Positions 1-9,791 of a stretch of 9,791 nt of DNA are shown here, in pieces. Source of the stretch: Armatimonadota bacterium (GTDB lineage: Bacteria; Armatimonadota; Zipacnadia; Zipacnadales; UBA11051); NCBI GenBank assembly GCA_003542955.1, contig DPJP01000242.1:39511-49301 (forward strand), given 5' to 3'. A model generated the notes under the pieces. The model made no database searches and was not told the DNA's origin. It saw only the letters and a list, made by a program, of their open reading frames with translations. Numbering within the stretch: the first letter of the stretch is position 1; each line of letters starts with the position of its first letter. Both the position numbers and the translations under genes were made by a program.

Positions 1-2946
1 CACCATCCCGAACTCGCCGGTAACCGCGAGGTCGCCGCCCTCGGTCTTCCACACGCACTGCTCCTCCGGCACGATGGAGCTATGGATCAGGTCTCGCGCG
101 CCCTCTCGTCTGACGGCAATTCCGGCCGCCTGGTGCGAGGCGTCCACCGCCTCGAGCCTGCCGGCTGATTGCGTCAGCGCCGGGCCCCTGTGCGGCTCCG
201 AGAGTGTGATGTAGGTCGAGGACAGGTCATCCTCCGTTGCGCCCTCCGGCAGCGCGTTGCGTGCCAGCACGTATTGCAGCGTCTTCGGGTGGCCGGGCTT
301 GAGTTCGGGCTCGGCATCGGCCAGGATTGCTTCCTGCGTGCACCCGCCGGGCATGAACATCGTCAGCGCGAGGCCCTCGAGGGGGTCACGCCAGGTGGCG
401 GACCACTCGCCCTGTGGCCGCATGCGCCGGATGTTGAACAGGTACTGGAAACCGCTGGAGCGGATGTCGGCGATACGCGGCGAGGCGCCACCGAGTTCGT
501 CGGTAATTGCAGCTCCGAGCACCAGTGCGTAGGTCTGCCCTGCGATCTGCTTCGCCATCATCGTGAGCGTCTTCGCCGCCTGTGGGAGGTCGAAGACCTC
601 CGATACCCACATCGGCCCGACCTGCCCGGAGGGCTCCCAGGTGATGTCCTTGCTGATGCCGCCGATATCGACGCTCACGGTCACCGAGCCGGTGTTGTAG
701 TCGTGGACCTGCAAGAAGAGTTTCCACGTCCCGGTGGGGACCTCGGGGAACTCGACTGTCATCGGCACATCGAGCTTCCGTGTCAGCACGTATGAGCCGC
801 TGTACCTGGCCCAGCCATCCAGCGATTGCTCGCCGTAGGTGCGATCATCTTTGACCAGGTCCGGGCTATTGCTGAGTGCGAGCACGCGCGCCTGCCCCTT
901 GCCGCCAACCGTCGTCGTCGATGGCACGCCGCCGAACTCGCAGTCCTCGCCGGCGAGTGTCCCCTTCTCCTGCAGCGGGCCCGGCTCGGCGCCTGCGACG
1001 GTGAACTCCGGGAACGGCGGCCCGTGGAAGCTGTAGTCATGCTGATACCCGCCGTCGACTCGGAAGATGTCGAGCAGGTAGGAGGTCTCAGGCGAGATGT
1101 CGATCAGCACACAGGTGCGCCGGTAGAGGCTGACGTCGTGCGGATATGTGACACGGTCGGCGCTCGCATCCATCAACTGCACCTGCGGCGTACTCACCAG
1201 CGTGTTGAGGAAGCCGCGGTACATGCTCTCCTGCCGCTTCTGGTTGACCAGCACGGCATAGTGGCTGACGGTGTTGGAGGTCCAGTAGGTGTTCTTCTCC
1301 AGCCAGTGGGCCGGGTAGCCCATGTCGGTCAGCATCGGCTTGCCGTGCGACATCAACTGGATCGTCAGCCGATCAGAGTGTCCGTGTCCGCCGCCGGCGT
1401 GCCCGTAGTACATGCACGCGCCGCGCCGATTGCCCGGCCCGCCGCTCTCGAGCACCGCCAGCCCGTAGCCGCCGAGGTTGCGGGTACTGTAGTCCATCTG
1501 CGTGCCGACTTGAGCCACTGCCGCATCGACTTCATCCTGGTCGAAGTAGGTCTCGAAGAGGTCCTCCCCGCCGGCCTTCATCGTTGCCAGCGCCTGCGCG
1601 TGCCTGGGGTCCTTGTAGTGGTCGAAGGCCCTCCCCTGCAGGGTGCGACTCCAGCCCACACGGCCCGCGCCGAAGATCGTGCCCGCGTCACCAATCGAGG
1701 GGCAGGTCGTTTCCGCGACATACAAGTCCAGGCCGATGTCGGCCATCTTCTTCAGCTTCGGGTTCGCCCAGATGTCCACTCCCAACTTGGGCAGCAGCGC
1801 GGCAACCTGGTAGAAGCCTTCGCACCAACCGGCGGAGTAGCCCGGGGAGCTTTCCCCCCCGTGCCCATCCCGGTAGAAGCCGTTCCAGAGCAGGTACTCG
1901 CTATCACCTCCGCCGGTCATCACCCAATCGGCCATCTCTTTGGTCGTCGGGCCCTTCGCCGGGTCATCGTTGTCGATTGCGATGGCGACGGTACACATCG
2001 CCTGCTGGTGCATGCCCTCGTTGCCGACGATGAAGCGGCGCTTGAGGTCATCGACCATCACATGCAGCATCTGTGTCTCGATGTGGTGTGGCAGGTCGTC
2101 AATCCCCCTGGCACTGAGGTAGGTGGCCAGCTCGGTATCCTCCACCAATGCCGGGAAGATGGCGTCGTATGCCATCGAGAGCGTACTGATTGTGCCGTTG
2201 GACCAGATGTAGTCGACGATGCGGCCGTTGATGCGCGCGGGCCATAGTCCGTTGTGGTAGGCCTGCTTTGGGTAGTCATACCGCGCCCAATCACCGGCGA
2301 TTTTCGCGAGCATCAGGGCGCACTTGTGTGCATAGATGGGCTCATCGGTCAGCAGATAGGCATTCGCAAGCGCCCGCACACCGGGGATGACATCCGCCTG
2401 CCAGCGCCGCCAGAACACGTAGTAGCCGACGAAGAAGTAGCGCTTGCCGTCCTCGGACATCCAGCCGGCTCCGTGGTCGATGTAGTCGGAGCCCTTCTGC
2501 GGCTCTTCGGTGATGCTGTTGGGATTCCACGGCGCGAAGTCATTCGAGGGATAGACGGTGTGGCAGACGGGGCACTCGACCTTGAAAGGCCTGTCGCGGC
2601 TCGTGATCCATGGATAGTGCCCGGCGGCACGGAATATCTCCTTGCCGCACTTGGGGCAGCCGTTGCCGAAGCTGACATTGAGCGCCCGGAGCTGCTCAGG
2701 TGGCGGGATGAAGTCCCACAACTCGTCATCGGACATGTCCACAAGCCACTGCGCGGAGCTTCGTGCCGCCGCGACCTGGTTTCTGGCCCACTCGTGCTGC
2801 TCGATCAGCTTGTGCACGCGGGCCATCATCTCATCATCATAGTAGCTGCGGCCGTCCTTGCCGAGGGCTGCTGGAGCAGAGACAACCAGAAGTGCCATCA
2901 GACAGGCAACCAGCAATGCATGGGAAGAGCGCGACACGGCCTTCAC
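1..2946 (-). CDS. Secreted heparinase II/III-family protein (partial, runs off left edge)
   Basis: The minus strand is open from a GTG at 2944-2946 to base 1, giving 982 residues with no stop, so the C-terminus lies outside the window. Residues 1-29 form a signal peptide (MKAVSRSS, then a hydrophobic run ending near SAPAALG), pointing to export. Residues 97-128 hold two Cys pairs (C97/C100 and C125/C128) that look like a zinc ribbon. Next comes an alpha-helical region typical of the toroid fold, with NEGMHQQAM at 309-317 and GYSAGW around Y370. The GGGHGHSD motif (H521, H523, D525) begins the heparinase II/III-like C-terminal domain; a beta-rich region follows. In this superfamily such His and Tyr residues act in uronate polysaccharide lysis; the exact catalytic assignment here is inferred by analogy. 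The GTG start is preferred because the signal peptide follows at once and a purine-rich GGGGAAAA lies upstream. The ATG at 2964-2966 is in another frame and meets a stop just before the GTG. The substrate cannot be read from sequence. Confidence 0.88.
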   Translation of the reverse strand, partial: MKAVSRSSHALLVACLMALLVVSAPAALGKDGRSYYDDEMMARVHKLIEQHEWARNQVAAARSSAQWLVDMSDDELWDFIPPPEQLRALNVSFGNGCPKCGKEIFRAAGHYPWITSRDRPFKVECPVCHTVYPSNDFAPWNPNSITEEPQKGSDYIDHGAGWMSEDGKRYFFVGYYVFWRRWQADVIPGVRALANAYLLTDEPIYAHKCALMLAKIAGDWARYDYPKQAYHNGLWPARINGRIVDYIWSNGTISTLSMAYDAIFPALVEDTELATYLSARGIDDLPHHIETQMLHVMVDDLKRRFIVGNEGMHQQAMCTVAIAIDNDDPAKGPTTKEMADWVMTGGGDSEYLLWNGFYRDGHGGESSPGYSAGWCEGFYQVAALLPKLGVDIWANPKLKKMADIGLDLYVAETTCPSIGDAGTIFGAGRVGWSRTLQGRAFDHYKDPRHAQALATMKAGGEDLFETYFDQDEVDAAVAQVGTQMDYSTRNLGGYGLAVLESGGPGNRRGACMYYGHAGGGHGHSDRLTIQLMSHGKPMLTDMGYPAHWLEKNTYWTSNTVSHYAVLVNQKRQESMYRGFLNTLVSTPQVQLMDASADRVTYPHDVSLYRRTCVLIDISPETSYLLDIFRVDGGYQHDYSFHGPPFPEFTVAGAEPGPLQEKGTLAGEDCEFGGVPSTTTVGGKGQARVLALSNSPDLVKDDRTYGEQSLDGWARYSGSYVLTRKLDVPMTVEFPEVPTGTWKLFLQVHDYNTGSVTVSVDIGGISKDITWEPSGQVGPMWVSEVFDLPQAAKTLTMMAKQIAGQTYALVLGAAITDELGGASPRIADIRSSGFQYLFNIRRMRPQGEWSATWRDPLEGLALTMFMPGGCTQEAILADAEPELKPGHPKTLQYVLARNALPEGATEDDLSSTYITLSEPHRGPALTQSAGRLEAVDASHQAAGIAVRREGARDLIHSSIVPEEQCVWKTEGGDLAVTGEFGMV

Positions 2947-3014
2947 CCCGTTTTCCCCGTGCGCATGGCCGCGCACGGCGATGAGTACGACACGGGGCAG
3001 TATTCGCCGTGGAG

Positions 3015-3032
3015 GGCCAAACTCCCTTGGCC
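3015..3032 (-). terminator. Short hairpin downstream of ppk2, possible terminator
   Basis: GGCCAA (3015-3020) and TTGGCC (3027-3032) form a perfect 6-bp stem with a 6-nt loop, 40 bases past the ppk2 stop. There is no T-run, and the hairpin also sits in the leader of the next gene. Terminator function is a weak inference; the symmetric stem could equally be a leader structure. Confidence 0.25.
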
Positions 3033-3071
3033 GTGCCACGGGCCGGGGCCGCCGATGTGACCGCCCTGAGC

Positions 3072-3929
3072 CTACTTCGCCTCCGCCTCGCCATCCTCCG
3101 GCACCGCGCACAACTCCGCGTAGTGGTCCTCGATGATGATGTGAGCCTCACGCGGTGGACGGACGTAATACTCATCGCGCGGCGGGCGCGGAGTCAGGTC
3201 GATTGGTTCGGGGATCGCGTCGGTGTAGGGAATCGTGCTGAGGATATGGCGGATGCAGTTGAGGCGCGCGCGGCGCTTGTCATCGCCCTCGACCTGGTGC
3301 CATCGCGCCTGCGGCAGATCGGTGTGCTGGAACATGATATCCTTGGCCTTGGAGAACTCGACCCACTTCTCCCGCGCCTCGATATCGACATCGCTGAGCT
3401 TCCAGCGCTTGAGCGGATCGCTCGCGCGCTCCTGGAAGCGCCGCTCCTGCTCGCTGTCACTCACCGAGAGCCAGTACTTGAGCAGTGTGATGCCCGAGCG
3501 CACGAGCATGCGCTCGAACTCGGGGCAGGAGGCCAGGAATTCCCAGTACTCCTCATCGGTACAGAAGCCCATGACGCGCTCGACGACGGCCCGGTTGTAC
3601 CAACTGCGGTCGAACATGACGATCTCGCCCGCTGAAGGCAAGTGGGCAACATAGCGCTGGAAGTACCACTGCGTGCGCTCGACATCGGATGGCTTGTTCA
3701 GTGCGACCAACCGCAGGCCGCGGGGGTTCAGTGGCTCCGTGATGCGCTTGATGACCCCGCCCTTGCCGGCGGCATCGCGGCCCTCGAAGAGAATCACGAC
3801 CCGCGCGCCCTCCTGCTTGACCGAGTACTGCATCTTCACAAGCTCGGTCTGCAGCCGCGCGAGTTCGCTCTCGTAGGCCTTCTTCTTCAACCAGCCCGTC
3901 TTCGGTCCGGCTTCCTTCAGCTTTGCCAT
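3072..3929 (-). CDS. ppk2: Polyphosphate kinase 2, class I (PA0141-type)
   Basis: This 285-residue protein transfers phosphate between inorganic polyphosphate and nucleoside diphosphates. It is cytoplasmic and belongs to the P-loop kinase fold. The Walker A segment is EGRDAAGKGG at 49-58, and the Walker B segment is MFDRSWYNR with D107. Family-typical strings follow: ERVMGF, LKYWLSVSD, DPLKRWKLS and DDKRRARLNCI. The length and single kinase domain match one-domain class I PPK2 enzymes. I chose the ATG at 3927-3929 because GGGAGAG and GGAGG lie just upstream and family similarity begins with MAKLKEAGPK. The frame is open further upstream, to an ATG at 4224-4226, but that extension resembles no kinase sequence. 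The gene lies 413 bases downstream of the RNA polymerase on the same strand, with a hairpin between, so cotranscription is uncertain. All expected motifs are present, so it is probably active. Confidence 0.95.
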   Translation of the reverse strand: MAKLKEAGPKTGWLKKKAYESELARLQTELVKMQYSVKQEGARVVILFEGRDAAGKGGVIKRITEPLNPRGLRLVALNKPSDVERTQWYFQRYVAHLPSAGEIVMFDRSWYNRAVVERVMGFCTDEEYWEFLASCPEFERMLVRSGITLLKYWLSVSDSEQERRFQERASDPLKRWKLSDVDIEAREKWVEFSKAKDIMFQHTDLPQARWHQVEGDDKRRARLNCIRHILSTIPYTDAIPEPIDLTPRPPRDEYYVRPPREAHIIIEDHYAELCAVPEDGEAEAK

Positions 3930-4122
3930 GGCTCTCCCGCCTCCGCACGGCTGACGTCCCTGTCGCCCGGCCGACGCTGTGCCCGACGCCTGACTGACGC
4001 CGACAGCCGCCGATTGCGCTCCCTCAGCAGCCTTATCGGCACACACGGCCCATCTCTCAACGGATCCCGGCCCGGCCCGTCGCGAACTCGTCAGTAGTCC
4101 GTATTCGCCACAGCCCGGCAGA

Positions 4123-4136
4123 TTCCGCCTGCGGAA
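4123..4136. repeat. 14-bp palindrome, operator-like
   Basis: TTCCGC-CT-GCGGAA is an exact inverted repeat with 6-bp arms and a 2-base centre. It lies about 195 bases upstream of the ppk2 start codon. The tight centre is more like a dimeric repressor site than a terminator. No dedicated regulator is encoded nearby, so operator function is inference and chance occurrence in GC-rich DNA is possible. Confidence 0.3.
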
Positions 4137-4279
4137 GCCGGGTTTGGTCGGCAGTTGGTGCGGATGTAGGCGGTACACAGGGGCATCGCATACCCGGGAC
4201 CATCGGTCGACAGCGGGAGGCACCAACTCCCCGAAACACGACTGCTCGGGCTACGCGAAGGTGTCGGCGGCGGCACGCC

Positions 4280-4318
4280 AGGGGGCTGTCCGGGGTGTGC
4301 GGAGCTGGGCAGCCCCCT
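4280..4318 (-). terminator. Hairpin just after the RNA polymerase gene, probable terminator
   Basis: GGGGGCTG (4281-4288) pairs perfectly with CAGCCCCC (4310-4317), and the flanking A4280/T4318 adds a ninth pair. A TCC/GGA pair inside the 21-nt loop can stabilise it. It starts 25 bases past the polymerase stop codon, where a terminator is expected. There is no T-run after it, so it would be a non-canonical GC-rich terminator or a Rho-linked 3-prime end structure. Confidence 0.5.
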
Positions 4319-4342
4319 TGGCCGCGTTGTCGGAGGGAGGCC

Positions 4343-7300
4343 CTACTTCGGCTCTAGGCCCACGAACAGCCTCGCGTCCACATCATCGAGCGGATCGCAT
4401 GCCCTGTCACGGGCGGCCTCCGCGAACACCCGCTCCGGCCGGGAGCTGCACATCGCCCGGGCCAGGATGCCGTCACCCTTCGGCGCCAGCAGGTTCCTCA
4501 GGCGTGTCCCCTCACCAATCCGCCACGCCATCGCCTGCAGCGACTCGACTCCCTCGAAGCCCGCGCTGATGCACTCCTCTGCATCCAGCCCGTCGCGGAA
4601 GCCTCCGGGGAGCGCGCGTTCGCCCATCGCGTCGGCCGGCACGCCACGCGGCCCGATGATCTGTCGCAGTTGCGGGATACTACCCCGCGCTCCGCAGCGG
4701 GCGGCAAGCACCTGCGGCCACACACTGCACTCCGGGGCGCTTCCCTGGTCGAGGAGGGCGGCGTCCACCGCTGAGCAGTAGGCGCGCCAGAGCCACGGGT
4801 GGAGGCTGCTCGGCGACTGTGGCACTCGGATGTCCTCGCCGATGAACGGGGATATCGAGGCGCCCGAGCGCGTCATCGCAGTCGTCCCGAGGACCTTGAG
4901 GGCATCAAGCACACGCACCGCTGTGTTCGGTCCGCTGCGCGACAGGAGGTCGCCCAGAGCGTCGATGAACCAGGCGCGCGTGAGTGTCTGCGGCGGCTGG
5001 GGCAACTCAGTGGGCCATGAGGCCAGCAGTTCAGGCCGGTGCGCACCATCACCCGCCCAGTAGGCCAGTCCCCACAACACCCCCTGATCCGGCGCGGTGT
5101 GCACCATGAGTGAGCCCGGATCGGCCACCATGTGCCCGGTCACGCTGAGCTTCTGCTTCGCCTCCGCCTGCCCGGCCTCCGTGATCGGCAGGAACACGGC
5201 GACCTGGTCGCCGTCGTAGTCGGCATTGAACAACCGGCAGCAGAACGGGTGCATGCGGATGACAGGCCCGTCGGTCAGCACCGGAGTGAATGCGGTGATG
5301 TTGGTCGGCTCGATGCTCGGCGCGCGGTTGATGAGCACGACATTCCGTGCCATGATGCGTTCGAGAGCGCCCAGCGCCTCCGCGGTCTGTTCTGATGCCG
5401 CCTCCGCCCCCGCCTCGCGCGCCACCAGCGGCCTGAAGAGCCCCCATGCCAACTCGTGCGGGAGACCGACCTGTCCGAGCTGCAGGCTCGCGCCCGGCGC
5501 CAGTACCGCGCGTGCGCTGAAGCTGACCTGGTTCCCCCCGCGAAGCGTCTCGCCGATGCCGGGACCGCGCACGTAGGACGCAACCGCGCCGCCGAGCACC
5601 TGCGTTGCACCCTCCGAATCGTCCTCCGCAACCAGCCGCTCCGCCCGCCGGTTTGCCTGGATGACCATCTCGAACCTGTCATCGCGTCTGTCGGGAGGAG
5701 GCAGATGTGTCAGGCTGATGTCGCTGAACCAGGGGTGCGGGATCGGCGTCGCCAGCGACAGGTCGTCAGGCCCCGGGGCCACGAGGGAGAACGCCACACC
5801 GGCCCGATCGAGGTCCATGCTGATGCCGGCTTTCCGCAGTTGCTCGGCGAGCCGGGCAAATGCCGGGGAAGGCGGCGGCAACTGCTCCACGGGGCCCGCG
5901 GCAAGCCGCTCGGCGAGCGACTCCGCACCCGGCGCGTCGACGTTACGCAGGCCGTAGGTCTCGAGCATCGTCTCGTGCGCGTCTCGGGCCCGAAGCGCAT
6001 ACCACTCGAGTTCGCCCTGCCTGCAGCCCCGGCCGGGTGTGCCGTCGGCCGTCCATCGCGCAAGCTTGGGCCGGGCGGTGTGGACCGTCTTCCCCCAGTA
6101 CACGTAGCCGACGGTCGAGGGCCGCTCCAGCGGCTCGCCGTCGCGCCCGTCCCAAAGGCGTGTCTGCCCGCAGGCAGGCAGCCCGGCTGCCGTGAGCATC
6201 TCCCGGATCGCCTCGGTCGAGGGCCCATCCAGCGGCGGCGCAATCACGGGCTTCCCGGTCGCATGCGCGACGTTGCCCAGCATCGCCTCCAGTACCTGAC
6301 CGAAGTTGCAGCGCGTGTGCATCCCGATGAAGTCGAAGATGATGTCGACCGCACGACCATCCTCGGTGTGGGGCATCTCCGCATCGGGCAGTATGGCGCC
6401 GACCACGCCCTTGGTCCCATGGCGGTTCGCGAGCTTGTCGCCGGGCTCCAGTGCGTCGGGCGATGCCAGCCTCGCAGCGCACGACTCACTGACCACGATG
6501 CCATCCTCGTAGTTGAGACCCTTCCAGTGGATGAACGCGGTCAGGAGATTCCTCCCGCACCAGAACTCGGCATCATCGGGCTCGTTGCCGGTCCGCACCA
6601 GTGCGGGCTCCGGCTCGGGCAGTGGCAACCACTGCCGGGTCATGTTCACACCCATCAGTGCCCGGACCGGGCTGTTGTGGTTGACCAGTGGCACCATGCC
6701 GGCGCTCAGCCCGAGCGCCCCTGCCGGTGTCTCATCGACGACGGCAATGTGGCCATCCCGCACCTCCGCCCCAGTCGCCAGGTGGAGCACGCGCCCCGAG
6801 TTCGGGCCCTCCGGCGTCTCCAGACAGCAGACGCGCCCGCGATGCGACGGGTGCATTGCGCAGTCGCCTTCAGGCAGCACGATGCGCCGCAGCGCGGTCC
6901 GCCTGTCCAGCCAGTTGGTGGCGTCCAGCACCTGACTGGTGGGCGAGTGAGTGAGGAAGTCCCGGATCCACTTGCCCAGCGGCAGCCATGCCTGCAGCAG
7001 CTCTTCGGTCAGGGCCACACCATCGGGCAGGCGCTGGATGCGCCCGGCAATCTCATCGACCAGCTGCTCGCCGACGCACTTGATCGCCCCGGTCTGCAGA
7101 TCGGTGCCCTCCGCGGCCATGATCACGACGCGCTCGCGCCCGTTGACCAGCAGTGTGCCATCCTCACGCATCATCGGGATGTCGGGGTAGGTTGTACTGA
7201 TGCTGCCGCCGCAGGAGCAGACGGTGACAGATACCTCGCCGGCGTCGTTCTGGGTACGGCTGACTTCATACTCGAGCAGGTCGAAGGCCGCACCGATAGC

Positions 7301-7360
7301 GGCGGGCAGGGCTTCATCCAGGAAGTGTCCGTAGCTCGCAGCGTGCGGGTTCGGGGTCAT
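4343..7360 (-). CDS. Compact single-chain RNA polymerase (beta / beta-prime fusion)
   Basis: The 1005-residue chain has beta-like sequence at about 1-470 and beta-prime-like sequence at about 500-1005. Beta signatures in order: IPMMREDGTLLVNGRERV (61-78); a rifampicin-cluster-like SQVLDATNWL (142-151); GRVCCLETPEGPNSG (175-189); NMTRQWLPL (239-247); GLNYEDGIVVSE (281-292); GDKLANRHGTKG (307-318, K309 and K317 matching the catalytic lysines); CNFGQVLE (351-358); GELEWYAL (449-456). Beta-prime signatures: LATPIPHPWF (536-545); coiled-coil VIQANRRAERL (566-576); VSFSARAV (612-619); NRAPS (678-682); NADYDGDQ (712-719, metal ligands D714, D716, D718); RSGAS (831-835); CGARGS (889-894); FRDGL (921-925). 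The two E. coli subunits together are about 2,700 residues. Lobe, flap, zinc ribbon, rim, jaw and trigger loop are missing. Both barrels look intact, so I infer DNA-directed RNA synthesis. It starts within the stop codon of the sigma gene. A phage-type or inactive relative cannot be excluded. Confidence 0.93.
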   Translation of the reverse strand: MTPNPHAASYGHFLDEALPAAIGAAFDLLEYEVSRTQNDAGEVSVTVCSCGGSISTTYPDIPMMREDGTLLVNGRERVVIMAAEGTDLQTGAIKCVGEQLVDEIAGRIQRLPDGVALTEELLQAWLPLGKWIRDFLTHSPTSQVLDATNWLDRRTALRRIVLPEGDCAMHPSHRGRVCCLETPEGPNSGRVLHLATGAEVRDGHIAVVDETPAGALGLSAGMVPLVNHNSPVRALMGVNMTRQWLPLPEPEPALVRTGNEPDDAEFWCGRNLLTAFIHWKGLNYEDGIVVSESCAARLASPDALEPGDKLANRHGTKGVVGAILPDAEMPHTEDGRAVDIIFDFIGMHTRCNFGQVLEAMLGNVAHATGKPVIAPPLDGPSTEAIREMLTAAGLPACGQTRLWDGRDGEPLERPSTVGYVYWGKTVHTARPKLARWTADGTPGRGCRQGELEWYALRARDAHETMLETYGLRNVDAPGAESLAERLAAGPVEQLPPPSPAFARLAEQLRKAGISMDLDRAGVAFSLVAPGPDDLSLATPIPHPWFSDISLTHLPPPDRRDDRFEMVIQANRRAERLVAEDDSEGATQVLGGAVASYVRGPGIGETLRGGNQVSFSARAVLAPGASLQLGQVGLPHELAWGLFRPLVAREAGAEAASEQTAEALGALERIMARNVVLINRAPSIEPTNITAFTPVLTDGPVIRMHPFCCRLFNADYDGDQVAVFLPITEAGQAEAKQKLSVTGHMVADPGSLMVHTAPDQGVLWGLAYWAGDGAHRPELLASWPTELPQPPQTLTRAWFIDALGDLLSRSGPNTAVRVLDALKVLGTTAMTRSGASISPFIGEDIRVPQSPSSLHPWLWRAYCSAVDAALLDQGSAPECSVWPQVLAARCGARGSIPQLRQIIGPRGVPADAMGERALPGGFRDGLDAEECISAGFEGVESLQAMAWRIGEGTRLRNLLAPKGDGILARAMCSSRPERVFAEAARDRACDPLDDVDARLFVGLEPK

Positions 7361-7362
7361 CA
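7358..7362 (-). promoter_or_regulatory. TGATG stop-start overlap coupling sigma and RNA polymerase genes
   Basis: On the minus strand the sigma TGA (7360-7362) shares its A with the polymerase ATG (7358-7360). Only a weak GGGACG-like purine run lies upstream, so initiation probably relies on ribosomes finishing the sigma gene. Such coupling usually goes with partner proteins made in linked amounts. Confidence 0.8.
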
Positions 7363-7923
7363 GTCATCGTCCCATCTCGCGGCCAGCCATCGCGTGGTCG
7401 AGTGCAGCCGCGACTTGATTGTCCCCACCGGCACACCGGCCTGCGCCGCGATATCCTGCAGCCGCCTCTGCTCGAGGCGTGCCATGCGCAGCAGGGCCTG
7501 CCGGTCCTCCGGCATCTGCGCAATCAGCTCGAGCAGCCGCTCGGCCCGGTCGCGCAGATGGGCCTGCTCCGGCACACCGAGCCCTGAGGCCTCCAACTGC
7601 CTGGTGGGCTCGTCGGCATACTCATCGATCTCGTCGTCGATGTTGCCGTGGGCTCGCAGGCGGGAGTCGCGGATGTGGTTCAGCGCGAGGTTGGTCGCGA
7701 TCCGCAACAGCCACGCCAGGGGCGCCCCTGACCCGTCCCATTGCTCGCAACGCTCCCACGCTCTGACCCACGTCTCCTGCAGCAGGTCCTGGACATCGCC
7801 GGAGTCGACGTAGCGCAGCAGGTGGAGGCGTAGCGTGCCCTCGTGTCGGCGCTTGAGTGCGCCGAGGGCCTCGCCTTCACGTGACTGCACCAGCAGCATC
7901 AGGTCATGATCGGTGTGTGCCAT
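7360..7923 (-). CDS. ECF-family RNA polymerase sigma factor
   Basis: This 187-residue protein has the two-domain layout of an extracytoplasmic-function sigma factor. Region 2 spans about 8-90: the core DVQDLLQETWVRAWER (43-58), then PLAWLLRIATNLALNHIRD (68-86), the -10-recognition and core-binding part. An acidic linker (96-105, IDDEIDEYAD) leads to region 4 at about 125-180, with the helix-turn-helix LQDIAAQAGVPVGTIKSRL (155-173), which reads the -35 element. There is no region 1.1 or region 3. The ATG at 7921-7923 is the first start after an in-frame TGA 13 codons upstream. No good Shine-Dalgarno precedes it, which fits a very short leader. No anti-sigma gene adjoins it; its partner in the operon is the compact RNA polymerase. 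I infer that it serves as that enzyme's specificity factor, though it could also use the cell's main polymerase. Confidence 0.95.
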   Translation of the reverse strand: MAHTDHDLMLLVQSREGEALGALKRRHEGTLRLHLLRYVDSGDVQDLLQETWVRAWERCEQWDGSGAPLAWLLRIATNLALNHIRDSRLRAHGNIDDEIDEYADEPTRQLEASGLGVPEQAHLRDRAERLLELIAQMPEDRQALLRMARLEQRRLQDIAAQAGVPVGTIKSRLHSTTRWLAARWDDD

Positions 7924-7937
7924 GGGGGTACATGGTA

Positions 7938-7965
7938 GATGACACGCGAGGGGCCCGCCGGTTCA
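7938..7965 (-). promoter_or_regulatory. Possible ECF-type promoter of the sigma/RNA polymerase operon
   Basis: On the minus strand TGAACC (7960-7965) is followed by a 16-nt spacer and GTCATC (7938-7943), which resembles AAC-type -35 and GTC-type -10 elements used by many ECF sigma factors. GAACCGG occurs twice at 9-base spacing (7958-7964 and 7967-7973). Transcription starting about 7 bases after the -10 would leave roughly 8 bases before the ATG, fitting the lack of a ribosome-binding site. The match is by eye. Confidence 0.35.
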
Positions 7966-7990
7966 CCCGGTTCTCCAAAGCGGCCCATCC

Positions 7991-8003
7991 CCCCGCTACG
8001 GGG
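7991..8003 (-). terminator. Small hairpin after the ceramidase-like gene
   Basis: CCCCG (7991-7995) and CGGGG (7999-8003) form a 5-bp stem with a 3-nt loop, 3 bases past the stop codon. No T-run follows. It may be a weak 3-prime end structure separating this gene from the sigma operon; a chance GC-rich repeat is possible. Confidence 0.25.
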
Positions 8004-8006
8004 CGC

Positions 8007-9239
8007 TTACCTCGTGGCATCGATGGCGGCCTCGAGCCGCTCCATCAGCAGCGGCACGGCGTTCGGGTTGATCGACATCCGCTGCTCGTAGGCGTATCTC
8101 TCATTGTCGACCGCTTCGGCGTGCAGCAGGTAGCCCAGCTCATCGTCGGCCAGCCCGAAGAAGAAGCGGAACTGCGCATCCATCAAGCCCTTTACCGCCA
8201 GGCCGACCTTCGGCAACGGCTCTCCCGGCATGGTGGCGAACTGCGCCGGACCGATCCGCCCCGCAGTCACGGTAGTCGTGATAGTCCCATCAGCGTTGGG
8301 GGCTCGCTTGATCACCCCCAACTGCGCAGCCAGGGCGAGCAGCGGATTGGCCATGGGGAGAGAGAACCTGGCGCGGGCGAGTCTGATGTCGGCTTCCGCG
8401 ACCTCGACCGCGTGCTCAATCGCCGCCGCTGCCGCCCGGCCGAGTGCACGGCCGACGCGCTCGGTCTCCGCAAACGAGTTCTCACTCACCTCCGGGGTGA
8501 CCATTCCGCCGAGCGCGCCGTTGACGAACAGCACGTCACCCGTGCCCGCAGTCTCCATCTGCTCGCGGAGGGAGTGGACGAAGTCGGAGGTGATCAGCTT
8601 GCTCTGGGTGGTCAGCACTTCGGGGTGGCATGCGTAGTTGACCAGCGTGCAGATCGGCACACCATCGAGCGTGACCGCCTGCATGATGCTGATCTCGGGG
8701 TCGATGAGATCGCGTTCGCGGGAGTTGTGGCCGGTCCTCTCCGGCGCGACCGCTCTGGCGAACCGGAGCCTGCACGGGGTGAGGGCGGAAACTGCCTCGG
8801 CAATGGCTCCCGCCGCCCGCTCCTTGACCATGCTCATGTATGCCGGGTCGACGCCCGACACCGTCGGGGCGGGACCCCACAGCCCGAGCGTGTCGGGGCC
8901 CGAGTGGACGTGCGTACAGGTGATGATGATGCTCTCGCGGGGAACACCCGTAACCCGTCCGGCGATCTCGTCGGTGTCGGGCAGGAACAAGCCGATGAGG
9001 TCGCACGCGACGATCACGAGCGTCGTCTCACCGTCATCGAGCGCGATCGCGCGCACCCACAGGTCGTCGTGGACACCCTCGGCGATGCGATTGGCGCCGT
9101 ACCCGGCGATGAACTGCCCCGGCTGCTCGGGGGTGATGGTGGCCCTCGCATAGCCGGCGCGTAACGGACCGGCTATCGCGGGCAGAGCCATGCACAGCGT
9201 CAGCAGCAGGCTTGCGAGGGCGAGTGCCTTCAGTGGCAT
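8007..9239 (-). CDS. Secreted neutral/alkaline ceramidase-domain hydrolase
   Basis: The product has 410 residues. Residues 1-23 are a signal peptide (MPLKALALASLLL, ending ALPAIA before GPL), so it is exported. The mature part opens with GYARATITP (29-37), the usual opening of the neutral ceramidase N-terminal domain. By analogy with neutral ceramidases the zinc ligands would be H110 in THVHSGP (109-115), H205 in CHPEV, E340 in MPGEP and Y370 in LGY. The position of the catalytic serine (GDxSP in true ceramidases) reads GGMVTP (244-249), with Thr248 in place of Ser. Known neutral ceramidases exceed 600 residues; this one has only the catalytic domain. It may therefore be an amidase-like enzyme with another substrate. 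The ATG at 9237-9239 was chosen because a strong GGAGGAGG lies 9 bases upstream and the signal peptide follows directly; the open frame extends further upstream without similarity. Confidence 0.87.
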   Translation of the reverse strand: MPLKALALASLLLTLCMALPAIAGPLRAGYARATITPEQPGQFIAGYGANRIAEGVHDDLWVRAIALDDGETTLVIVACDLIGLFLPDTDEIAGRVTGVPRESIIITCTHVHSGPDTLGLWGPAPTVSGVDPAYMSMVKERAAGAIAEAVSALTPCRLRFARAVAPERTGHNSRERDLIDPEISIMQAVTLDGVPICTLVNYACHPEVLTTQSKLITSDFVHSLREQMETAGTGDVLFVNGALGGMVTPEVSENSFAETERVGRALGRAAAAAIEHAVEVAEADIRLARARFSLPMANPLLALAAQLGVIKRAPNADGTITTTVTAGRIGPAQFATMPGEPLPKVGLAVKGLMDAQFRFFFGLADDELGYLLHAEAVDNERYAYEQRMSINPNAVPLLMERLEAAIDATR

Positions 9240-9248
9240 GTCGGTGAG

Positions 9249-9256
9249 CCTCCTCC
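9249..9256 (-). promoter_or_regulatory. Strong ribosome-binding site deciding the ceramidase-like start
   Basis: GGAGGAGG lies 9 bases before the ATG at 9237-9239. It is the best Shine-Dalgarno sequence in the window and contrasts with the sigma gene, which lacks one. Confidence 0.75.
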
Positions 9257-9300
9257 AATCGAGTGCGAGGACACTTCGCGGCCGCGGGCGTCTCTTCCTG

Positions 9301-9320
9301 CCGGGCAGGGCGCCGCCCGG
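9301..9320 (-). terminator. GC-rich hairpin after the methyltransferase gene
   Basis: CCGGGC (9301-9306) pairs with GCCCGG (9315-9320) around an 8-nt loop, 20 bases past the methyltransferase stop and about 60 bases before the next start codon. There is no T-run. A terminator is plausible by position but unproven. Confidence 0.35.
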
Positions 9321-9340
9321 GGCGACAGCGGCCGGATTGC

Positions 9341-9791
9341 CTAAGGCCGCACCGCACACACGTGATAGCTCCCGCTCTGGTTCTGCTCGCCACACTCGAC
9401 CTCGGCCCACCCCGCCTGGCACAACAGCGCCGCGGCGCGCTCCGGCTCGAATAGCAGCAGGTCGAACCACTGCTCCACATTGCCCTCGTACTCGTACCTG
9501 ATCCGCACCTGCCCCGGCGGCCGTCGGGCATCGCGATTGGCCTGGTGGTAGGCCAGGTGCACAGGCTTATCAGTCGCCAGCGGATCGCGCACGGCGGCCA
9601 GCAGCTTCCCGCCGGGGGCGGTGACATCCAGGAGGGCTGACAGCATCCGGCGCGTCCCCTCCTCGGTCCCACCGATGCCCATGTTGTTGAACATCATGAT
9701 GACGCCGTTGAAGGTGCGTGGCTTGAAATCGAGGTCAAACACGCTCATCACGCGCACATCGGGACACCCGCGCTCGCGCGCCACCTCGACG
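9341..9791 (-). CDS. Class I SAM-dependent methyltransferase, C-terminal part (cut by right edge)
   Basis: The frame ends with TAG at 9341-9343 and is open through the right edge, so about 149 C-terminal residues are visible and the N-terminus with the SAM-binding glycine loop lies outside. The fragment starts in the acidic strand-2 area (VEVARERG), continues with VRVMSVFDLDF, then the post-motif strand GVIMMFNNMG, the helix TRRMLSALLDVTAPGG and the strand KLLAAVRDP. This order is typical of class I Rossmann-fold methyltransferases. The NNMGIGG loop is where the substrate pocket normally forms. The C-terminus has the usual antiparallel strands (AGWAEVECGEQ, then SGSYHVCAVRP). The substrate is unknown. 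The GTG at 9782-9784 is internal and not a credible start. Confidence 0.8.
   Translation of the reverse strand, partial: VEVARERGCPDVRVMSVFDLDFKPRTFNGVIMMFNNMGIGGTEEGTRRMLSALLDVTAPGGKLLAAVRDPLATDKPVHLAYHQANRDARRPPGQVRIRYEYEGNVEQWFDLLLFEPERAAALLCQAGWAEVECGEQNQSGSYHVCAVRP

Follow-up and report, generated by a model that had tools for sequence, protein, structure and literature searches.

The window analysed here (the whole stretch of 9,791 nucleotides (nt), positions 39,511 to 49,301 of the forward strand of contig DPJP01000242.1, Armatimonadota bacterium, assembly GCA_003542955.1) carries on its minus strand two overlapping genes, one for an extracytoplasmic function (ECF)-type sigma factor and one for a compact RNA polymerase (RNAP) in which beta and beta' parts are joined in a single chain, with a predicted promoter in front of the pair. 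The overlap amounts to one base, common to the stop codon of the sigma gene and the ATG start codon of the polymerase gene. The features of this putative operon, in the direction of reading, are as follows.

7941-7965, minus strand: predicted promoter TGAAC-N15-GTGTC (-35/-10-like) of the sigma-RNAP operon, the window contains no other exact match of TGAACN{15,16}GTGTC (expected number 0.02)
7360-7923, minus strand: ECF-type sigma factor of 187 amino acids with regions 2 (residues 25-88; Sigma70_r2, E 2.6e-15) and 4 (residues 128-174; Sigma70_r4_2, E 1.8e-10)
4343-7360, minus strand: compact single-chain beta-beta' RNA polymerase of 1,005 amino acids, recognised by its reading frame, Pfam matches, homologues, conserved residues and structure model
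5807-7360, minus strand: beta-like half, residues 1-518, corresponding to E. coli beta 31-146 and 442-1342, without lobe and flap
6452-6469, minus strand: site of the missing flap, residues 298-303; 22-47 residues lie between the D286 and K309 columns (121 members) versus 250 in E. coli
6410-6436, minus strand: beta barrel lysines K309 and K317 (E. coli K1065 and K1073 by profile alignment), kept in 120/121 and 118/121 members
4346-5806, minus strand: beta'-like half, residues 519-1005
5570-5680, minus strand: clamp helices, residues 561-597, aligned to beta' 267 onward, with modelled helices 561-578 and 582-597; predicted docking site of sigma region 2
5207-5221, minus strand: catalytic aspartates D714, D716 and D718, invariant in 121/121 members
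4514-4582, minus strand: bridge helix, residues 927-949, aligned to the end of beta' 267-799; modelled helix
4358-4438, minus strand: C-terminal segment, residues 975-1001, probably the switch segment at the beta' C-terminus (the structure alignment extends to beta' 1358)

An earlier note on this DNA had described 4343-7360 as one continuous beta-then-beta' frame of 1,005 residues, and this description is borne out by the open reading frame (ORF), the Pfam matches, the profile alignments and the models. Its interpretation of the product as a minimal single-chain polymerase that has near-canonical motifs and differs both from YonO and from rpoB-rpoC fusions of full length is likewise supported by the profile alignments and models; what it overlooked is that the ORF lies on the minus strand (the plus-strand frame of the interval contains stops), that a sigma gene stands upstream and that a promoter-like element precedes the pair. 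All the residues it named (E285, D286, K309, K317, D714, D716, D718) are present in the ORF, and the size it had estimated at about 40% of normal was measured as 37%, i.e., 1,005 residues versus 2,749 in E. coli beta plus beta' (1,342 + 1,407).

Pfam analysis detected Rpb2_3 (residues 143-200), Rpb2_6 (301-430, E 3e-39) and Rpb1_2 (667-736, E 6e-23), while a match to Rpb1_4 at residues 887-918 remained below the Pfam threshold. The protein contains both hallmarks of the two-barrel RNAP superfamily, namely the DxDxD motif in a beta'-type barrel and basic residues in a beta-type barrel. In the alignment of 121 members (the window protein and the 120 listed homologues), to which all conservation counts refer, the aspartate triad has no exceptions, and among the other site residues D286 is kept in 116, E285 in 104, R679 in 120 and H427 in 119 members. 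The closest profiles are those of bacterial RpoB and RpoC; the curated cut-offs for the canonical subunits are nevertheless missed by far, both for RpoB (PRK00405, 207.1 bits versus 896; TIGR02013, 205.9 versus 801) and for RpoC (TIGR02386, 115 versus 963.5).

The profile alignments to E. coli revealed no lobe, flap, zinc ribbon, rudder, trigger loop or jaw, so that the compact RNAP lacks the full domain set of the cellular core, and the gaps are common to all 121 members. The structure was predicted with a predicted local distance difference test (pLDDT) score of 94.1 and a predicted template-modelling (pTM) score of 0.92; its modelled halves superpose on cellular beta and beta', and cellular chains are also those listed as fold matches, which does not speak against families outside the list, the phage enzymes included. 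According to the model, the beta and beta' core folds are predicted to be united in one chain, which retains the clamp and bridge helices but has no flap, lobe, zinc ribbon or trigger loop. The trigger-loop signature was found in 0/121 members, the control for it being weak, as it is carried by E. coli, by three of nine canonical rpoC pieces (cut by locus ends) and by five of ten alpha-beta-beta' proteins. The C-terminus was considered as a shrunken trigger loop, and this idea was dropped because the structure alignment reaches the beta' C-terminus; in hhalign comparisons the scores of this segment were 16.7 with beta' 1330-1354 and 10.2 with the region of the trigger loop, and permuted columns reached 20.9.

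In the search of 5.8 billion proteins, at least 401 of the 7,997 candidates scored were homologues at E<=1e-3. The best 120 of them comprise 991-1,055 residues, cover 97-100% of the query with 39-84% identity and are mostly annotated, where an annotation is given, as 'hypothetical protein'. The concern of the earlier note that close homologues might turn out full length did not materialise: they are equally short and lack the same parts, and for this reason an assembly artefact is ruled out. By sequence, the compact RNAP is a real and widespread family and no deletion product. A genome-collection search gave 48 loci, of which 41 (L012-L052) belong to the compact family. Judging by record titles, which may be outdated, the family spans about eight phyla, the titles naming Armatimonadota, Hydrogenedentota, Poribacteria, Chloroflexota, Latescibacterota and Gemmatimonadota and the orders Myxococcales and Phycisphaerales; three Gemmatimonadota-titled loci are close kin of the Latescibacterota ones. 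Within the phylum of the window the compact RNAP occurs in 17/291 genomes (8/194 high-quality ones), within that of Dictyobacter kobayashii in 4/400 including this organism (one match partial), and within that of genome G291 in 11/84 including G291 (several matches partial). Ordinary rpoB and rpoC, for which the earlier note had advised looking in the same genome, were both found there (contig C389, where N stretches break the frames and the contig end truncates them). They also accompany the compact RNAP in six of the seven carriers among 61 relatives; in the remaining one, G014 (86% complete), only the compact RNAP was seen.

The dN/dS ratio (nonsynonymous to synonymous substitution rates) was 0.147-0.180 in the 18 closest pairs shown, which reveals, on the evidence of codon comparison, purifying selection. 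In the unrooted beta' tree, which includes no archaeal or phage outgroup and does not date the family, the 21 compact members formed one group separated from 26 other sequences by a branch of 0.99 with support 100. A separate observation concerns the copy in the cultured strain D. kobayashii (L036, NZ_BIFS01000001.1), where two TGA and one TAA stops interrupt the polymerase frame; despite the broken polymerase, the sigma frame is open and the promoter element exact.

The protein encoded upstream of the polymerase passes the sigma70-ECF model TIGR02937 (75.6 bits versus the cut-off of 42.9), and Pfam recognised in it only regions 2 and 4 and no regions 1 or 3, the composition of an ECF factor. 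A homologous sigma ORF lies directly upstream on the same strand in 42/42 loci (the window and 41 others), its end falling anywhere from 277 nt ahead of the aligned polymerase start to 3 nt past it; in one of these loci, L022, the contig end cuts the sigma ORF and removes the promoter region. The sigma gene is also present in 16/16 further loci from the window's phylum, eight of which look like species already among the 48 genome-collection loci. No sigma gene was found just upstream of a larger relative, L053. The two proteins co-diverge, as follows from comparing their sequence distances (Mantel r 0.879, n 35; best of 2,000 permutations 0.322). ORF clustering revealed no family-wide neighbour besides the sigma-RNAP pair, so that no family-wide anti-sigma candidate was seen; gene order around the pair is kept locally within clades.

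The element TGAAC-N15/16-GTGTC was found before the sigma gene, with at most one mismatch, in all 41 loci that retain this region. Thirty elements are exact, nine have one change in GTGTC and two begin with CGAAC; the spacing is 16 in 38 loci and 15 in three. In 200 shuffles the mean number of exact occurrences was 0.065 (maximum 1) and that of occurrences with up to one mismatch 1.83 (maximum 5). The figure of 41/41 overstates independence, since the element was first seen in clade alignments of upstream regions from some of these very loci and since relatives share it by descent. Additionally, a slightly looser pattern is present in 8/8 loci of other species, and 15 of the 16 further loci overall have the element, the miss (L156) arising because an interrupted frame shifted the interval searched. 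In the window the element ends 17 nt before the sigma start codon, and a bipartite promoter-like sequence of fixed spacing upstream of the factor's own gene, another feature of ECF systems, is present as judged by sequence. It resembles ECF promoters, with their AAC-type -35 and GTC-type -10 elements. In 737 kilobases of flanking DNA, 37 of 41 hits were the operon promoters and four lay elsewhere.

Taken together, sequence comparison establishes the beta-beta' fusion, the retention of the catalytic residues, the shared deletions, the fixed sigma-RNAP pair and the conserved bipartite element. We consider it quite probable that the compact RNAP and the upstream ECF-type sigma factor form a two-protein holoenzyme, which is predicted to start at TGAAC-N15/16-GTGTC, its own promoter first. 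In ordinary RNAP, the beta' clamp helices hold sigma region 2, and the beta flap tip anchors region 4. Here one overlapping operon would yield both sigma and core, and, because the compact RNAP retains the clamp helices but has no flap, docking would proceed through region 2, which would bind the clamp helices and read GTGTC as the -10 element; region 4 would read TGAAC as the -35 element without its usual flap-tip anchor. The fixed spacing of 15-16 base pairs suggests that both elements are still read at a set distance and, hence, that something other than the flap positions region 4. A candidate for this role is a PxWMIDxxSLGPD-like stretch between the two sigma regions, noticed by eye in many members, not in all, and not clear in the window. 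The holoenzyme would presumably run beside the normal polymerase and drive its own operon by positive feedback, positive autoregulation being the simplest circuit because no conserved predicted target other than the promoter of the operon itself is seen. Catalysis would proceed without a trigger loop, which has a precedent, since YonO, with no detectable trigger loop, is reported as highly processive in the available part of PMC5467207.

In a broader formulation we lean towards a self-contained second transcription machine, that is, a private sigma factor and a flapless, trigger-loop-less RNAP of 37% size with a promoter class of its own, distributed over some eight phyla and switching itself on like an autogene. 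If this is true, no known sigma-dependent RNA polymerase would be smaller, and the holoenzyme would be orthogonal and parallel to the cell's own. The textbook rule is one core and many sigma factors, and a chromosomal core reserved for one sigma would break it. It would also open to testing the question of which parts of the large core are required for sigma-dependent initiation and catalysis, because the sigma partner and the fixed-spacing element persist here without flap, lobe, zinc ribbon, rudder, trigger loop and jaw. For in vitro or synthetic transcription, such an orthogonal two-protein pair with a predicted promoter would be a handy tool.

Several facts weigh against this second transcription machine. 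The flap and the trigger loop, both important in ordinary RNAPs, are missing; the family is patchily distributed, even in the window's own phylum, and was not found in the same-genus genomes G001-G004; and the polymerase frame is interrupted in D. kobayashii, G286 and G707. Close relatives inherit the promoter and the sequence distances together, i.e., the loci are not independent. Moreover, no clear regulon or convincing second target emerged from the scans of genomes and flanks. The pattern TGAACYTN{8,20}GTGTC, which the operons of four of the eight genomes scanned do not fit, gave 67 hits versus 52 for the reversed control; 13 of the 67 had the right spacing, including four operon promoters, and the other nine are a slight excess over 4.5 per other spacing (average over 12 other spacings), with eight of these nine inside frames of at least 290 codons. 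TGAAC-N16-GTGTC in four Poribacteria genomes gave 37 hits versus 44 for the reversed pattern; of the 30 examined, four were operon promoters, and three of the 26 others lay outside long frames, with no convincing gene behind them. As a separate observation, the sole intergenic right-spacing hit not belonging to an operon (L200, near base 2001; genome G293, contig C89) is located 102 nt before an ORF which by eye resembles an ATP-binding cassette (ABC)-type substrate-binding protein.

Among the other explanations, the strongest is that the sigma factor serves the ordinary core, while the compact protein, being no working polymerase, acts as a regulator or decoy binding sigma or nucleic acid. 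The general understanding that ECF factors normally use the shared core and the loss of the flap and trigger loop speak for it; however, nearly all members retain the metal triad and barrel lysines, which a decoy would not need, and the low dN/dS values also argue against it, so that we regard this explanation as unlikely. It is improbable, too, that the protein belongs to a mobile element or an old prophage, whose polymerase has persisted by chance and copies or expresses that element. The patchy distribution would suit such an origin, and phages with single-chain two-barrel RNAPs are known, according to the available parts of PMC5467207 and PMC10770324, but a match covering 80% of the compact RNAP was found in none of the 72,556 plasmid and 50,697 phage records. 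The partial matches (66 plasmid and 38 phage records) were mostly of the ordinary rpoBC type where annotated, the best 80 of 215 viral-contig loci were only distant relatives (21-29% identity), and viral predicted structures matched weakly (best E 7e-17, TM-score 0.30). An origin from a phage or plasmid was rejected on the basis of the plasmid, phage and viral-contig searches; the clade-wise conserved local gene order, the sigma gene as the sole family-wide neighbour and the near-canonical motifs also speak against the mobile-element explanation. A defence system was likewise rejected, as PADLOC gave no hit at E<=0.01.

It is hardly credible that the enzyme makes RNA without being a sigma-dependent transcriber of DNA, e.g., as an RNA-templated or primer-making polymerase: two-barrel enzymes do include the RNA-dependent polymerases of RNA interference (available part of PMC10770324), but the fixed sigma pairing, the bipartite promoter element and the closest profiles, bacterial RpoB and RpoC, point elsewhere. 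Finally, an assembly-made deletion or a decaying rpoB-rpoC duplicate, which the large missing parts and the stops in D. kobayashii, G286 and G707 could suggest, is scarcely conceivable in view of the same gaps in every member, the full-length open frames in many independent assemblies and the purifying selection, and for the window it is already refuted by the full-length homologues.

The surroundings of the pair agree with the earlier note, which had placed it among ordinary chromosomal genes: a PPK2 polyphosphate kinase gene (3072-4226, minus strand) lies downstream of the compact RNAP gene, and a ceramidase-like ORF occupies 8007-9470 (30.0 bits, under the Pfam cut-off of 32.1). Beyond the right end of the window, the same contig (piece L010) carries three further ORFs assigned by eye, of which two resemble thymidylate kinases and one is a second PPK2-like frame (408-1232 and 1266-2303 on the minus strand, 2294-2842 on the plus strand).

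Other unusual polymerases were met during the searches. Three genomes encode an extra single-chain RNAP with alpha-type domains (RNA_pol_L, RNA_pol_A_bac) ahead of beta and beta'. In L056 it occupies 8678-15382 (plus strand; 2,246 codons), has a second alpha-like domain, RNA_pol_L_2, and is accompanied by a sigma-like ORF at 7589-8140 on the opposite strand; in L053 it occupies 635-6574 (plus strand; 1,999 codons); and L059 8933-11878 and L057 2-3607, from the same assembly, look like two ends of the third one. Ten alpha-beta-beta' proteins (P0121-P0130) have 2,234-2,363 residues. All three genomes also contain rpoB-like frames of ordinary length (1,263-1,475 codons), and the L053 genome has in addition a compact-type match on contig C92, likely L034 of the same assembly. 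A 1,478-codon frame of Methylococcales bacterium AMbin149 (L058, 504-4937, plus strand), with a DFDGD motif and no RHGxKG motif of the pattern used, is possibly another divergent RNAP.

Among the known systems, YonO of Bacillus phage SPbeta shares with the compact RNAP one chain, two barrels, the aspartate triad and no detectable trigger loop (available part of PMC5467207). It differs in being a prophage protein of 839 residues, without BLASTP similarity to the compact RNAP (best E 2.7) and with a profile match of only 26 columns around the DGD motif (probability 0.3%, E 0.2); no sigma gene is annotated beside yonO in the stretch fetched, and none is noted in the available part of PMC5467207. 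The gp64 and gp96 proteins of P23-45 are likewise single-chain two-barrel RNAPs, gp64 being crab-claw-shaped, but they are phage-encoded, and no sigma partner is named for them in the available part of PMC10770324; they are set apart here by description only. In Helicobacter-type rpoB-rpoC fusions, beta is joined to beta' in the same order and with near-canonical motifs. These fusions, however, are about 2,880 residues long, carry the complete set of Pfam domains (P0158, P0161, P0163) and are the main RNAP of those species. The alpha-beta-beta' polymerases (P0121-P0130, L053, L056) resemble the compact RNAP in being single-chain and extra to ordinary rpoB, and differ from it by their approximately 2,000-2,360 residues, alpha-type domains and full-length, flap-containing Rpb2_6. 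No description of a compact sigma-RNAP family was recognised in the literature searched, the coverage of which was partial, so an earlier mention is possible. With an ECF sigma factor and the ordinary core, the system has in common a sigma factor of regions 2 and 4 and a fixed-spacing bipartite promoter upstream; here, in contrast, a private core without flap is encoded beside the sigma gene, whereas, to our knowledge, the known ECF factors share the cell's one core. Should a two-gene orthogonal sigma-core system be shown to function, it would be of a new kind, and the compact RNAP would act in it as a sigma-dependent bacterial RNAP reduced to the core.

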